NCBI GenBank assembly: GCA_903925685.1 | Contig: CAIYGI010000154.1 | Location: 1 to 50,147 of the forward strand | Length of the DNA: 50,147 nucleotides | Direction of reading: 5' to 3' | DNA from: an uncultured bacterium | GTDB lineage: Bacteria; Verrucomicrobiota; Kiritimatiellia; CAIKKV01; CAIYGI01 | In this document: in pieces, positions 26,756 through 33,246 of the stretch | Layout of the letters: the number at the start of each line of letters is the position of its first letter | Numbering within the stretch: the stretch's first letter is position 1 | The notes under the pieces: generated by a model | Databases searched by the model: none | What the model saw: only the letters and a program-made list of their open reading frames with translations | Told to the model about the DNA's origin: nothing | Made by a program: the position numbers and the translations under genes

Positions 26756-27922
26756 ATGTCCATTGGCGTTGGTTTTCAACCGGGTATCGAAACGCTGCTT
26801 GCCGATCACGGCGACTGGCTGGCCGGGCGGCGCATCGGGCTTGTGAGCCATCTGGCGGCGGTGGACAAGGATGGCGTCAGCAGTGCCGAGCGGCTGTGGC
26901 ATGCGCCAGGCGTGCGTTTGAAGGCCCTGTTCGGCCCGGAACATGGTTTCGTTGGCGCGGCTGGCGCGGGCGAGAAATGCGCCGACGCGCTGCATCCGGT
27001 CTGGCGCATTCCGATCCATTCGCTCTACGGCGTGACCCGTGCCCCAACGTCGGCCATGCTGGCTGACATCGATACGCTGGTGGTCGACCTGCAGGATCTG
27101 GGGTGTCGCTGCTACACTTACATCGCCACGCTTTGCGGCGTGCTGGAAGCGGCGGCGGCGGCGGGCAGGCAGGTCATTGTCGCCGATCGTCCGATTCCTC
27201 TGCCGCGCGTGGTCGATGGCCCCGTCACGGAGTCGGCCTTTCGGAGTTTCGTTGCCTGCCTGGATGTTCCGTTCAGCTACGGGATGACGCCTGGGGAAAC
27301 CGCCCTTTGGTTCCAGCGCCGCCATCTCCCTGAGCTGGAGTTACGCGTTGCGGCGCTGCGCGGTTACCGACGCCCCGCCGCGCGCGGCACGCACTGGCCG
27401 CCCTGGCGCCGCCCTTCGCCCGCCATCGTCTCCTGGTCCGCCGCCCAGTCATATCCCGCACTGGTCGCCTTCGAAGCGCTCGGAGCCTTGGATCACGGCC
27501 GTAAAACCGTCCGCCCTTTTTCCGTTTTTGGCGCGGCCTGGATCAGGGGCGAGCCGATTGCCCGGCGCTTGTCAGCCGCCGGACTGCCGGGTGTCGAATT
27601 CCGGCCTTGCCGCTACGCCAGCCATCCTGGACATGCCGACGACGTCGCAATTGACGGCGTGCGCCTGCGTGTCACCCGGCCTCATGATTTTCGGCCCGCT
27701 TTCACCGCCGTTTCGCTCATTCACACAATCCAAGAGTTGTATGGGATCGAACGCGTCTGGGAGCCGGCGCAAAGCCGTCCCGAATTTTTCGACAAACTGT
27801 TCGGGACCGACACTGTCCGCAAAGCGCTGCTGGCCGGCGACGCCCCCTCGGTCATCGCCGCCCGCTGGACCATCGCCCTGCGCGACTTCTCCGAAACCCG
27901 CCAGGACAGCCTGCTTTATTGA
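26756..27922 (+). CDS. namZ: NamZ-like exo-beta-N-acetylmuramidase (DUF1343)
   Basis: A 388-residue DUF1343 protein: GRRIGLVSHLAAVDKDG, ALFGPEHGFVGAAGAG, VVDLQDLGCRCYTYIATL, VIVADRPIPLPR, DVPFSYGMTPGETALWF. These match the catalytic (about 1-230) and C-terminal auxiliary parts of NamZ, which removes terminal MurNAc from peptidoglycan fragments. No signal peptide is visible in this start, unlike exported homologues, so it may act on imported muropeptides. The ATG is chosen because upstream codons lie in the predicted promoter. A MurU-AmgK fusion that would use its product lies 2.1 kb downstream. Confidence 0.85.
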   Translation: MSIGVGFQPGIETLLADHGDWLAGRRIGLVSHLAAVDKDGVSSAERLWHAPGVRLKALFGPEHGFVGAAGAGEKCADALHPVWRIPIHSLYGVTRAPTSAMLADIDTLVVDLQDLGCRCYTYIATLCGVLEAAAAAGRQVIVADRPIPLPRVVDGPVTESAFRSFVACLDVPFSYGMTPGETALWFQRRHLPELELRVAALRGYRRPAARGTHWPPWRRPSPAIVSWSAAQSYPALVAFEALGALDHGRKTVRPFSVFGAAWIRGEPIARRLSAAGLPGVEFRPCRYASHPGHADDVAIDGVRLRVTRPHDFRPAFTAVSLIHTIQELYGIERVWEPAQSRPEFFDKLFGTDTVRKALLAGDAPSVIAARWTIALRDFSETRQDSLLY

Positions 27923-27935
27923 GCGGCCTTTGCGG

Positions 27936-27954
27936 AAGGCGCTGCAAGCGCCTT
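27936..27954. terminator. hairpin between convergent genes
   Basis: AAGGCGCT-GCA-AGCGCCTT is a perfect 8-bp stem with a 3-nt loop in the 47-bp gap between namZ and the convergent TAXI gene. No T-run follows on either strand, so termination could need Rho or the stem could stabilise 3' ends. Confidence 0.4.
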
Positions 27955-27969
27955 GGGTCAGTGTCGGCG

Positions 27970-29313
27970 CTATGGGAGGCTGTTTTGCAGGCGGCCACGC
28001 ACAAAAGCTATATGGCCGCGCAGGCCGTAGAATTGATCGGCAAAAGAGGCCGGTACCTTCATCTTGTTGACCGCCTCCTCGATTTGATTCAGACGTTTTA
28101 GAAACTCATCCTTCTTGTGGTGCGCGTCCTGCCGGAAGATTTCGCGTTCCAGAGACAGCAGCGCCCGATACCATCGATATATGCCAAGGGTGATCCTCCA
28201 TTTGTAAAGCGCCGGTATCAATCGCAGGCCGGGGATCAACAACACCAGCATAGGCACAAACACCACCAGCATCCGATTGGCCAGGCTGGCCAGTCCAAAT
28301 GGCAGGAAACGATAAAAGAAACTCTTGCCCGTGGTGAAATACCTGCGGGCATCGGCGCTGATCTGAAACTCGCGTTCCAGTGGCGCTGGAAATGCCCCGC
28401 GGATATGGAACAAGGTCGCGTTGCCGTGAACTTCCCGGGCTGCGTCCAGCAATAAATAGGTCAAGGCTGGATGCAGGTCGGGCCGCGCAATCAGTTCCAC
28501 CGTGGGACCGATCAATTGCATATCGTGCGCAGGGAGATTTTTCCCGAAGTCCAGGCAGCCCTTCGGCAGCTCCAGTTTATCCAGATAAACGATGCGGCGC
28601 GTATAGGCATCGGCTTGCGTGAAATCGTACATCTGAATGCCTTCCGTCCGTACCATTTTGCGGATCACCTGCGTGGAGGCGGAATCCCCCATCAGGAACA
28701 CGGCGTCAACCTTGCCGTCCACCAGCGCGCTTGCCGCAGCCTCCCCCTCCAAGTCCAGCAACTCGGTAGTTCCGCCGGGTTCGATGCCATTGGCAGACAG
28801 CAACCTTAACGACAGCGCCCGTGTGCCGCTGCCCACGGAACCGATGGTCAGCCGTTTGCCGGCCAGTCCGGAAAGCAATTCGACGGTCCCCGTGCCGCGA
28901 TAGAACACCAATATGGGTTGGTAAAAGACGCTCCCAAGCGAAACCAGCTCTGCCATATTAGCGCCATTGGTCACACCGCCTTGAACGAAGCCAATATCGA
29001 CACGATAGGTTGGATCGCCCAGCCGCGCGAGATTCTCCGTCGAACCTTGCGAGGTCAAAATTTTCAAAGTCACACCGTTGCGCGCAAGAATCGCGGCATA
29101 CTTGACGGCATTGGAATAAAAGATGCTGCCCTCGGGTCCGCTCGTGATGACGATGGTATGCGGCGGCGCGAAATGGACAAACTCAATAACGAGCACCAGT
29201 ATAAACACCGCAACGAAAATCAAGGCGGTGGCCGCCACTTTACGGCTGAACCCGAAGGTCTCCGTGCAGGTCGTCATCATTTTCGGGATGCCAAACTTAT
29301 TGGTGATTTTCAT
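27970..29313 (-). CDS. TAXI-family solute-binding protein with N- and C-terminal membrane anchors
   Basis: A 447-residue protein. A single N-terminal membrane segment (ALIFVAVFILVLVIEFVHF) is followed by a TAXI/TRAP-type binding domain: ITSGPEGSIFYSNAVKYAAI, VDIGFVQGGVTNGANMAELV in parts, RLTIGSVGSGTRALSLRLL and VDAVFLMGDSAS. A second membrane segment (about 340-372, RMLVVFVPMLVLLIPGLRLI) and a charged helical tail of some 75 residues follow. Ordinary TAXI proteins are free periplasmic receptors of TRAP transporters; no TRAP permease genes are nearby. It may be a membrane-bound sensor or receptor. ATG 29313 is preferred over a TTG 12 bp upstream. Confidence 0.78.
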   Translation of the reverse strand: MKITNKFGIPKMMTTCTETFGFSRKVAATALIFVAVFILVLVIEFVHFAPPHTIVITSGPEGSIFYSNAVKYAAILARNGVTLKILTSQGSTENLARLGDPTYRVDIGFVQGGVTNGANMAELVSLGSVFYQPILVFYRGTGTVELLSGLAGKRLTIGSVGSGTRALSLRLLSANGIEPGGTTELLDLEGEAAASALVDGKVDAVFLMGDSASTQVIRKMVRTEGIQMYDFTQADAYTRRIVYLDKLELPKGCLDFGKNLPAHDMQLIGPTVELIARPDLHPALTYLLLDAAREVHGNATLFHIRGAFPAPLEREFQISADARRYFTTGKSFFYRFLPFGLASLANRMLVVFVPMLVLLIPGLRLIPALYKWRITLGIYRWYRALLSLEREIFRQDAHHKKDEFLKRLNQIEEAVNKMKVPASFADQFYGLRGHIAFVRGRLQNSLP

Positions 29314-29671
29314 GATTTGAAACAATCCTGTTTGCTTGTTGATTAACGCCGGCTTAAGGCTGGCTGCATACCTTCCAGTCGTGTTGCTTACGTTATACGA
29401 CAGGTTGATCCGTTCAAAGTAGGGTAAAACCCTACCGCCGAATAGAAATCACCGCCAACCTGACGTCGCCCTGTCAAAGCAGCGATGCTCAAGCAGACGC
29501 ACCCCTTCGTCAAGCTGAATCGGCGCGCACCTGCAGTTGAGAGTTTGCGTTACGCCCGGGAAGTGTGCATCATTCCGCCAGCCATGAATTCGAGGTCATT
29601 GCGTTTGCGTTTTTCGCGCACGGTTCGAAATCGGGGTTTGTTCAGAAATCAGAAAAGGCAGGAGGTGTGCT
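29314..29671. other. gene-free region with a 17-bp palindrome
   Basis: No supported gene. GTAGGGT-AAA-ACCCTAC (29419-29435) is a perfect 7-bp stem, possibly an operator for the divergent TAXI gene. Around 29566-29613 two short pieces of the 74-bp TA-island repeat appear in swapped order. A 66-codon frame at 29485 has no recognisable features. Confidence 0.35.
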
Positions 29672-30040
29672 TTGCCGACATATGAACTTACGGGAACGGT
29701 TAAAGTTGTAATGGATGTAATGAAGTTCGATAGCGGATTCAGCAAACGTGAGTTTGTCGTGACAACCGTCGAAGATCGCTTTCCACAAGACATCAAGTGC
29801 GAGTGCTTGAAGGACCGCTGCGCCCTCCTCAACGACATCAAGCCCGGCCAGCGGGTGACGGTGTCTTTCGACCTGCGCGGCAATGAAAACAAGGGACGGT
29901 ACTTCGTGAGTTTGGCGGCATGGAAAATCGAGGCCGCAAAGCAACCCGGCGCCACGCCTGATGCTTCCGATGAAAGTTCGCCTTTCGACCAGCGCACTCC
30001 CCCAGGCGACCAACACGATGAAGGAACCGACTTTCCTTGA
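29672..30040 (+). CDS. DUF3127 (OB-fold, single-strand-binding-like) protein
   Basis: A 122-residue protein with the DUF3127 pattern: YELTGTVKVVMDVMKFDSGF, then KREFVVTTVEDRFPQDIKCE, and NENKGRYFVSLAAWKIE. The fold resembles single-stranded-DNA-binding or replication-accessory OB domains; function is uncertain. The TTG start at 29672 is supported by AGGAGG six bases upstream, and the protein begins at the conserved strand. The tail (about residues 90-122) is acidic and disordered. The stop overlaps the TTG of the next gene. Confidence 0.8.
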   Translation: MPTYELTGTVKVVMDVMKFDSGFSKREFVVTTVEDRFPQDIKCECLKDRCALLNDIKPGQRVTVSFDLRGNENKGRYFVSLAAWKIEAAKQPGATPDASDESSPFDQRTPPGDQHDEGTDFP

Positions 30041-31974
30041 CCTCCATACTCCACCTTCCACCTGAGCCGTTGCCGCCCTCCAAGGCTTTTATCCTTGCCG
30101 CGGGTCTTGGCACGCGCATGCGGCCTTTGACCGATTTGCTGCCGAAGCCGCTTTTGCCGCTTTGGGGACGGACGCTGATCGAGCATTTGATCGCGCTGCT
30201 CGCGGACTGGGGCGTGACGGATATCAGGATCAACCTTCATCACCACGTCGGCGTGCTGCGCGCCGCGCTGGAAAAGACAGCCGCCGTCATGCCGGGGCTG
30301 CGGCTCAGTTTTGCCGAAGAGCCGGAAATTCTCGGCACCGGCGGTCCGCTGGCGCCGGCGCGCGCGTGGCTGGGCGACGCGCCGTTCTGGCTGGTCAATG
30401 CCGACATCGCGGCCGACCTCGATCCAGCCCCTCTGCTTAGGGAGTACGCGCGCCTTCGTCCCGTGGCCGTACTCTGGCTCGATCCGCGCCGGGGGCCGCG
30501 CACTGTGCGCATACGCGGCAACCGCATCGTGAATTTTCGCGATGCGCGCCCAGGTTCGCCGGGCACCGCCACTTTTTGCGGGCTGCATCTGATAGCGCCT
30601 GCTATTTTCGACTATCTGCCCGCCGCCGGGCCAGCCTCGATCATTGACGCCTACCGCGCTGCCATGCTGGCTGGCAAGCGTATTTCCGGCGTGGCGGTTG
30701 AAGGTTCGTTTTGGGCCGATCTTGGCACGCCGGAGCGTTACATTCAGGCGCATCGCGACGTGCGCGACGCAGCCCGCCGCAAGATGTCCGGAGCGCGTTT
30801 GTTTTCCAGGACGGCTGTCAGCGCTGTGCCGGCGCTGCGCGGAACTTTCGCGGCGGTTGGACGCCGCGCCCGTGTGGCGTCCGGCGCGCAGCTCGCCAAC
30901 TGCGTGGTCTGGGATGGCGCGCATATCGGTCCGCATGTCGTCCTGCGCGATGCCATTGTGGCGGAGGGCGTTCTCGCCAACGCCGCCGGGGCGCAGATTG
31001 CGCTGCGCGCCGGTTCGATCGTATCCAACCCTGCGATCCCGGCGGCGGTTCGGGCGTTGGGCTGGTCGGCGGCGAAAACGATGGCCTTATATCTGCCGCC
31101 GCGCGCGTCGGGACGTTCGTTTGTGCGCCTGGTTTGCGGCGCGCGCCGGGCGCTCTTGATTTGCGACACCGGCGAGCGTGACGAAAACAGGCGCTACGCC
31201 GGCCACGCGCGCTTTCTGATTGCGCATGGCATCCCGGTGGCGCGCGTGCTGGCCGACCGTCCCGGCGAGCATTTTTTGGTCGTCGAGGATTTGGGTGCCT
31301 TAAGTCTTGAACAACTCGCCCCACGCTCCGCCCCGGCGGCCTTGGAGGCGCTTTACCGGCGCGTGCTTGACGGGGCGATCAAACTGCACGCCATTCCCGC
31401 GGCGGCCGTAACGGCAGCCGGACTGGTTTTGCAGCCGGCCTTTGGACCGGAACTGTACAAATGGGAACGGGAATATTTCGCCGAGCACTATCTGCGTGGT
31501 CTGCGCGCCATGAATAGCGCGGCTGTCCGACCAGTGTTGATTGAACTGCAGGATGTCGCCGCGAGGCTGAACCAGGCCCCCTTTGTCCTGCTGCATCGCG
31601 ACCTGCAATCCAGCAATCTGCTGCTGCGCGGCGGTCAACCGCACTTGATCGATTTTCAGGGCATGCGTTTTGGGCCTGCCGTTTACGACCTGGCCTCTTT
31701 GCTGGCCGATCCCTACGTGATGCTGCCCGAGAACATGCAACGGCGACTGCTGGCGCATTACGTCCGGCGCGGCGGCGTTGCAATAAACGAAACTTTGTTC
31801 TGGTTCGGCGCGGTCGAGCGGCTGGCCCAGGCGCTTGGCGCCTTCGCGCGGCTGAGCGGCCTGCCCGGCATGGCGCATTTTCACGCCTACCTGCCGCGCG
31901 GCGAGCGCATGCTTCGCCGTGCGCTGCGCCACACGCCTGGGCTGTCAAGGCTCCGCGACTTGATGGAAAAGTGA
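30037..31974 (+). CDS. fused MurU-like nucleotidyltransferase and AmgK-like sugar kinase
   Basis: A 645-residue fusion. Residues about 15-240: FILAAGLGTRMRPLTDLLPK, PEILGTGGPLAPARAWLG, WLVNADIAADLD and SFWADLGTPERY, as in MurU (MurNAc-1-phosphate uridylyltransferase). Residues about 265-335 show hexapeptide-like repeats not present in MurU. Residues about 345-630 are an APH-type kinase with LLHRDLQSSNLLL (about 517) and LIDFQGMRFGPAVYDLASLL (about 537), matching AmgK, the anomeric MurNAc kinase. One protein could thus turn MurNAc into UDP-MurNAc. The start must be the TTG at 30037, because the next Met lies inside the G-T-R-M motif. Heptads CTCCATA/CTCCACC/TTCCACC encode its first residues. 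Confidence 0.82.
   Translation: MTSILHLPPEPLPPSKAFILAAGLGTRMRPLTDLLPKPLLPLWGRTLIEHLIALLADWGVTDIRINLHHHVGVLRAALEKTAAVMPGLRLSFAEEPEILGTGGPLAPARAWLGDAPFWLVNADIAADLDPAPLLREYARLRPVAVLWLDPRRGPRTVRIRGNRIVNFRDARPGSPGTATFCGLHLIAPAIFDYLPAAGPASIIDAYRAAMLAGKRISGVAVEGSFWADLGTPERYIQAHRDVRDAARRKMSGARLFSRTAVSAVPALRGTFAAVGRRARVASGAQLANCVVWDGAHIGPHVVLRDAIVAEGVLANAAGAQIALRAGSIVSNPAIPAAVRALGWSAAKTMALYLPPRASGRSFVRLVCGARRALLICDTGERDENRRYAGHARFLIAHGIPVARVLADRPGEHFLVVEDLGALSLEQLAPRSAPAALEALYRRVLDGAIKLHAIPAAAVTAAGLVLQPAFGPELYKWEREYFAEHYLRGLRAMNSAAVRPVLIELQDVAARLNQAPFVLLHRDLQSSNLLLRGGQPHLIDFQGMRFGPAVYDLASLLADPYVMLPENMQRRLLAHYVRRGGVAINETLFWFGAVERLAQALGAFARLSGLPGMAHFHAYLPRGERMLRRALRHTPGLSRLRDLMEK
30042..30062. repeat. 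heptad tract at start of MurU-AmgK gene
   Basis: CTCCATA CTCCACC TTCCACC, the same family as 15354-15395 and 20274-20301, read in frame as residues 3-9 of the fusion protein. Confidence 0.75.
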
Positions 31975-31998
31975 ACAGTAAACAGTGAACGGTAAACC
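31971..31998. repeat. heptad tract, GTRAAC type, left of MFS gene
   Basis: GTGAACA GTAAACA GTGAACG GTAAACC. The TGA stop of the MurU-AmgK gene is part of the first unit. A related tract in the same orientation lies at 33229-33256. Confidence 0.9.
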
Positions 31999-32016
31999 GT
32001 GGAGATACAGAGGACG

Positions 32017-33246
32017 ATGCACATGGATGGGAAATCGCAGGGGCGCGGGCAGGCAGTTTTGATCTATATTCTGCCGGCATTGCTGGACATGGTTTTGTCG
32101 TTGGTGCTGTTCGTGGGAACGGTGCGCGTGATCAAAATGGGGGGCGATGCCACCCGGGCGGCTTCCGTGCTGGCGGTTTGGAGCATCGTCTACGTAGTGA
32201 CCAGTCCGCTGATCGGACGGCTGGTGAATTCCGGTAATGCGCGCCGTTTCATTCTGGGTGGCTGCCTGCTGTTTGCGCTGTCGTCCGGATTGCTTGCGGT
32301 GGCCACGGGATATTCCGCGATGCTGGCGCTGGTGGGAGTTTGCGCCGTTGCAACGGCGCTTTTTTTTACGCCATTTCAGGTATTCATGAAGGATGTGGAT
32401 TCCGCCGGCGGCCGTTCGGTGGCCTACTCCACGGGACTCTACACATTTTCGTGGAGCACGGGTTCTGCCTGCGGACCGTTCGTTGCCGGGTTCCTGTTAC
32501 AGCTCGGGAAGCCGGCCACGGCGGGCGGTGAAGGACCGGGCTGGCGCTATGCGTTTTTGTTCGGCGCGGCGGTTTGTCTCCTGATGCCGGTGGTGCTGGC
32601 GTTCGTTTCCGGCGGCCGGACCCGGCGCCCAGCCGCACCGGCGGCAACGCCGACCCCGACGGCCAACGCGCGTTACAGTTCCATGCCCGATCTGGCATGG
32701 CTTGGATGGATCGGCGCCGTGGCGGGTTTTGCCGCGCTCTCCATCGTCCGCGCCATTTTTCCGGCGCGGGCAATGGGGCCCCTGCATCTCTCGGAAAGCA
32801 CGCTCGGCTCGATTTTCTTCGTGCTGAGCATGACGCAGGCGCTTTTGGGCCTGGCTTTGATGCGCAGCCGTTACTGGATGTACCGTGCGCTGCCTGTGGC
32901 GGCGTTTGCGGTGGCAGGGATTATCGGCATGCTCTGCCTTGGGTTCGGCAATACTCCGCTCATGCTTATCGCCGGCGCGGCGTTTTTCGGGATTTATTCG
33001 GGGGCGTTTTGTTTTTACATGGTTTTTCATGCGCTTGTGCATCCGAAGCGGGCGGGACATTATGTGGCCGTCAATGAAAGTCTGGTAGGCATCACAGGTT
33101 TTCTGGCGCCGTTGCTCGGAGGAGTCATGGCCGATGCGTGGGGAATCCATTTTCCGTATCTGGTGGCCGCCTTGCTAACATTGGCGGCAATGACGTTCCA
33201 GGTCTGGATCCACGGGAAGACCAAGCTTGTAAACAGCGAACAGTAG
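32017..33246 (+). CDS. major facilitator superfamily transporter
   Basis: A 409-residue protein with about twelve hydrophobic segments and the MFS inter-helix pattern VTSPLIGRLVNSGNARRFI, a loop 2-3 motif with G-R and basic residues. The central cytoplasmic loop is Pro/Ala/Thr-rich (about 200-225). Substrate cannot be deduced. It directly follows the MurU-AmgK gene, so uptake of a cell-wall sugar or anhydro-muropeptide, as by AmpG, is a plausible inference. ATG 32017 follows AGAGG; 32023 is an alternative. It is flanked by direct heptad tracts, and its final residues (VNSEQ) are encoded by the right tract. Confidence 0.8.
   Translation: MHMDGKSQGRGQAVLIYILPALLDMVLSLVLFVGTVRVIKMGGDATRAASVLAVWSIVYVVTSPLIGRLVNSGNARRFILGGCLLFALSSGLLAVATGYSAMLALVGVCAVATALFFTPFQVFMKDVDSAGGRSVAYSTGLYTFSWSTGSACGPFVAGFLLQLGKPATAGGEGPGWRYAFLFGAAVCLLMPVVLAFVSGGRTRRPAAPAATPTPTANARYSSMPDLAWLGWIGAVAGFAALSIVRAIFPARAMGPLHLSESTLGSIFFVLSMTQALLGLALMRSRYWMYRALPVAAFAVAGIIGMLCLGFGNTPLMLIAGAAFFGIYSGAFCFYMVFHALVHPKRAGHYVAVNESLVGITGFLAPLLGGVMADAWGIHFPYLVAALLTLAAMTFQVWIHGKTKLVNSEQ

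Follow-up and report, generated by a model that had tools for sequence, protein, structure and literature searches.

An uncultured bacterium of the class Kiritimatiellia, and most of the relatives sampled from that class, appear to recycle MurNAc with only two proteins. We consider it quite probable that a cytoplasmic NamZ and a single MurU-AmgK chain form a two-gene anabolic route to UDP-MurNAc, the activities of both being predicted from family and fold. The window (the whole stretch of DNA analysed, 50,147 nucleotides of contig CAIYGI010000154.1) carries NamZ, the single-chain fusion and an MFS gene where an earlier note had placed them, as confirmed by Pfam profiles, NCBIfam models and a predicted structure (Table 1). 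The interpretation in that note stood in part: enzyme identities, domain order and pathway link gained support, the role given to the MFS gene was weak, and the argument from fosfomycin did not hold. The start of the fusion gene overlaps the end of the DUF3127 gene by 4 bases, an arrangement also present in the sister species; in the window, NamZ and the fusion are separated by other genes and do not form one operon.

Table 1. Features of the NamZ and MurU-AmgK region, in window coordinates.
Feature	Position	Strand	Remarks
NamZ, exo-beta-N-acetylmuramidase family, without signal peptide	26756-27922	+	388 aa; PF07075 + PF20732
TAXI-type binding-protein gene	27970-29325	opposite	between NamZ and fusion
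DUF3127 protein	29672-30040	+	PF11325, E 2.3e-23; between NamZ and fusion
MurU-AmgK fusion	30037-31974	+	645 aa, TTG start
MurU-like nucleotidyltransferase domain of fusion	30037-30750	+	residues about 14-250
Short left-handed beta-helix (hexapeptide-like) linker of fusion	30751-31032	+	residues about 260-332
AmgK-like kinase domain of fusion	31033-31974 (stop included)	+	residues 333-645
MFS transporter	31999-33246	+	PF07690; 24 bases 3' of fusion

The window NamZ matched both family profiles over their full length (NamZ_N, PF07075, E 3.9e-58 and 196.6 bits against a gathering threshold of 26.9; NamZ_C, PF20732, E 5.1e-32 and 112.2 bits against 25) and matched the solved NamZ-family structures 4k05 and 4jja. 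The GPEHG motif with E62 was conserved among the 31 distinct NamZ of the class (97% threshold). The N-termini were examined for a signal peptide by a simple hydrophobic-core check, and no signal-like core was found in 33 of 34 class rows, corresponding to 30 of 31 distinct genes; the single exception needs an upstream TTG start to acquire one. By the same check, such a core was present in 17 of 20 NamZ of the phylum's other classes. This difference makes the cytoplasm the most likely location of NamZ in the class, a possibility raised in the earlier note; it is a general feature, not one due to a mis-called start, and the lack of a signal peptide remarked upon earlier for the window protein was thus borne out across the class. 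A signal sequence is present on the NamZ of Bacillus subtilis (PMC10559633), an enzyme described elsewhere as extracellular (PMC13204101).

An AlphaFold model of the fusion, built on a 30-sequence alignment (pLDDT 93, pTM 0.89), comprised a nucleotidyltransferase domain, a short left-handed beta-helix and a kinase. Pfam placed NTP_transferase (PF00483) at residues 16-243 and APH (PF01636) at residues 369-577. AlphaFold, Pfam and NCBIfam together upheld the order MurU, hexapeptide-like linker, AmgK in one chain, and the term "hexapeptide-like" is right because the model has the beta-helix; the linker gave a weak LbH_EIF2B match, and the alignment shows it shortened, or all but missing, in some relatives. 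For the N-terminal part the best NCBIfam model was MurU (119.3 bits, below the equivalog cut-off of 250), which matched all 30 class members. Residues 15-247 superimposed on Pseudomonas putida MurU (4y7t) with Z 27.2 and 2.0 A over 218 residues at 38% identity, and the identity to PaMurU (8hhd) was 33%. In a tree of nucleotidyltransferase domains the fusion domain and the reference MurU proteins fell within a 32-row clade, apart from RmlA, GlmU, GMPP and paralogues, with support of only 90/55.

The kinase half was likewise best matched by the NCBIfam AmgK model (57.2 bits, below the equivalog cut-off of 550; next SrkA, 23.8), the only APH-family model to match it strongly. Its motifs, HRDLQSSN (520) and DFQGMR (539), fit HxDxxxxN and D(F/Y)Q, and H520, R521, D522, N527, D539 and Q541 were invariant in the alignment of 30 fusion members. 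Folded alone (pLDDT 96), the domain was closest to 3csv (Z 28.2, 23% identity), deposited as a putative aminoglycoside phosphotransferase, which we take to be an AmgK. Behind it (next Z 22.4) came corramycin phosphotransferase and choline, homoserine and aminoglycoside kinases at Z 19-22 and 10-19% identity; LicA, ChoK and APH themselves gave Z 19-21 and 10-15%. A profile made from the class kinases gave 95-137 bits for the AmgK-type proteins of Sphingomonas, Acinetobacter, Parabacteroides and Neisseria, and E. coli ThiK and SrkA were not matched. A choline or aminoglycoside kinase was accordingly rejected, AmgK being the best NCBIfam model and 3csv standing at Z 28.2 against 19-22; the earlier note had itself named a grouping with such kinases as evidence against its reading, and when the comparison was run this grouping did not appear. 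The best NCBIfam models and the closest folds thus support the predicted MurU and AmgK identities of the two halves. Since both scores lie below the equivalog cut-offs, a preference for MurNAc above GlcNAc or other hexosamines can be argued only from gene context.

We examined that context in 58 genomes. In 18 genomes from 9 families NamZ is the gene directly upstream of the fusion, in the same orientation, and the two genes abut or overlap in several relatives; in the genus of the window they are 2.6 to 4 kb apart, counting from where the NamZ N-domain ends. Both genes were present in 44 genomes and neither in 9, with the fusion only in 2 and NamZ only in 3, and these last five may be explained in part by incomplete assemblies. 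The co-occurrence gave a Fisher p of 1e-6, or 0.002 by family, in tests that ignore shared ancestry. The pathway link between NamZ and the fusion, first offered as an inference, is therefore supported by adjacency in 18 relatives and by strong co-occurrence.

In the proposed route, imported peptidoglycan fragments would be attacked in the cytoplasm by NamZ, which would hydrolyse MurNAc off the non-reducing end. The C-terminal kinase domain would phosphorylate the free MurNAc (perhaps GlcNAc also) at C1, the N-terminal MurU domain would convert MurNAc-1-phosphate and UTP to UDP-MurNAc, and this would re-enter wall synthesis past the MurA and MurB steps. The fused order could help MurNAc-1-phosphate to pass between the two sites. 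AnmK, MupP and MurQ would not be needed, because the product expected of NamZ is unmodified MurNAc rather than its anhydro or 6-phosphate form.

Other uses of the fusion were weighed. It might turn salvaged GlcNAc into UDP-GlcNAc or a different UDP-hexosamine, the link to NamZ then reflecting the release of both sugars: the NCBIfam AmgK model is named MurNAc/GlcNAc kinase, GlcNAc is a known substrate of AmgK, and no residues of the fusion could be assigned to the lactyl group. We regard this as unlikely, since the nucleotidyltransferase domain has MurU as its nearest relative and lies far from GlmU, and since the conserved partner is NamZ and not the GlcNAc-releasing NagZ. A role in some other nucleotide-sugar pathway (GDP-mannose- or heptose-like) for a surface polysaccharide, with NamZ an unrelated neighbour, is the least probable of the readings and a very improbable one; the nucleotidyltransferase domain and beta-helix together do resemble the GDP-mannose pyrophosphorylases, eukaryotic GMPP included (Z about 30), but at 23-26% identity as against 38% for MurU, and the partner kinase is of AmgK type, with NamZ adjacent in 9 families and co-occurring.

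The place of NamZ was also considered. Were it to reach the periplasm by a non-classical route, the fusion would use MurNAc monosaccharide taken up by the MFS protein or another carrier, and an MFS gene does stand 24 bases 3' of the fusion in the genus. This, too, seems highly unlikely, given that the MFS gene is not conserved beyond the genus and that 30 of the 31 distinct class NamZ, unlike those in the rest of the phylum, are without a signal peptide. A cytoplasmic NamZ feeding the MurU-AmgK chain therefore remains the preferred reading.

The genes of other recycling routes were largely missing. AnmK (PF03702) was absent from the 58 genomes except for two weak partial matches; NagZ was rejected as a partner, with none above cut-off in 20 genomes; and AmpG was rejected as the importer, TIGR00901 having no real match in 58 genomes. 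The check for murQ absence proposed in the earlier note came out as expected there: none was found in the genome of the window, where the lone weak match was rejected as GlmS by sequence, and true MurQ exceeded the cut-off in only 2 of 58 genomes. Proteins of MurQ/GKRP type were present in 7 of 12 genomes that lack the fusion versus 2 of 46 with it (p 8e-5), as if two MurNAc routes, by the fusion and by a MurQ-type protein, replaced each other. As to import, an MFS gene (PF07690) does follow the fusion, as had been said, but its link to the route is weak: the synteny holds only within the genus, no MFS neighbour cluster was seen around the fusion in other families, and the MFS protein was rejected as a conserved importer. 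It could import or export something. The wider proposal, that the whole class recycles without AmpG, NagZ, AnmK, MupP or MurQ, that MurNAc-terminated fragments enter through some other transporter, that the class NamZ lost the export signal and works in the cytoplasm, and that the single chain channels MurNAc-1-phosphate to UDP-MurNAc, is put forward tentatively, with doubt slightly outweighing belief.

The MurQ-like proteins of the relatives, mostly those lacking the fusion, are long (most 520-820 residues), with SIS domains like those of the glucokinase regulatory protein; they occur at L131:1119-2909 and L133:778-2496, and also in G009, G020, G029, G037 and G055. At L134:1551-3613, in a relative without the fusion, MurQ adjoins a gene for a BadF-type (MurK-like) kinase, which would be a catabolic alternative.

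AmgK/MurU routes bypass MurA and so protect Pseudomonas from fosfomycin (PMC5371409), and tolerance by the same bypass had been predicted for the window's organism. This was not supported in the form given. MurA was found nearly everywhere among the relatives, so de novo synthesis is intact, and in 20 of 20 genomes checked, that of the window included (L158-L177), MurA has Asp at the position of E. coli Cys115, within PPGGD[VIL]IGRRR in most of the 20. A MurA with Asp115 is active and fosfomycin-insensitive (PMC4790336). The argument is thus largely moot, since the MurA of the class is by its sequence already of the insensitive type; the predicted tolerance would add little, which indicates that fosfomycin protection by itself does not explain why the route persists.

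The fusion was present in 46 of 58 relatives of the same order and class (in this count, G039 is cut by a contig end and G048 is apparently frame-shifted). In other classes of the phylum the arrangement varies by family: the two enzymes may be joined in a single chain, encoded by two neighbouring genes in the order of the fusion, or encoded by separate genes. In the nucleotidyltransferase tree the class fusions made one supported clade, adjoined by the single chains of other classes (82/88), and the two-gene forms made a separate clade; this suggests one fusion event, not strongly supported. A search of genome contigs returned only the sister species, whose MAG contig JANYBP010000043.1 has the gene order of the window, and one match confined to the nucleotidyltransferase. 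In plasmid records, amgK- and murU-type genes were separate at all places inspected.

Anabolic MurNAc recycling of the Pseudomonas type proceeds by AnmK, MupP, AmgK and MurU. The route proposed here would share with it, by homology, the AmgK and MurU chemistry and the bypass of MurA/MurB, but joins the two enzymes in one chain with MurU first, lacks AnmK and, being fed by NamZ, would not require the HAD-family phosphatase MupP. Bacillus subtilis, with a NamZ of the same family, uses it with NagZ and MurQ, whereas here NamZ is predicted to be cytoplasmic and to feed an anabolic enzyme. Tannerella forsythia, which has NamZ1 and NamZ2, likewise combines NamZ with AmgK-MurU; there, however, AmpG is the importer, MurQ and MurK are present and MurA/MurB are lacking, whereas the present system has MurA and a fused enzyme pair but neither AmpG nor MurQ. 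Two papers give its salvage as AmgK-MurU, AmpG and MurK-MurQ, with NamZ1/NamZ2 (PMC7670621, PMC10465942). The tsaE-amgK-murU cluster of Sphingomonas and the RapZ-annotated AmgK with murU of Parabacteroides are encoded together as here, but as separate proteins with the kinase gene first. In Parabacteroides distasonis (L119:3932-6096) the AmgK-type gene annotated as RNase adapter RapZ adjoins murU; its product, at about 476 residues, exceeds the kinase match in length.

AmgK, MurU and NamZ are already known, and all three occur in T. forsythia; within the open literature searched, no report was found of the fused chain, the signal-less NamZ or their operon. A set of two genes, shared across a class, would represent a third way of recycling cell-wall sugars, for which other bacteria use four or more separate proteins. 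NamZ would gain an intracellular anabolic role, and the fusion would offer a naturally bifunctional catalyst for UDP-MurNAc synthesis or for peptidoglycan labelling from MurNAc probes. The question is also raised of how fragments enter without AmpG.

In three families (f4, f5, f6) the gene upstream of NamZ encodes a hybrid histidine kinase that has receiver and PAS domains; a hybrid histidine kinase gene abuts or overlaps the start of NamZ at L037:5617-7719, L044:12154-14094 and others (also L137:5108-6769); in L037 and L044 the architecture is receiver-PAS-kinase-receiver. Through this neighbour of NamZ, a signalling protein may be coupled to wall recycling.
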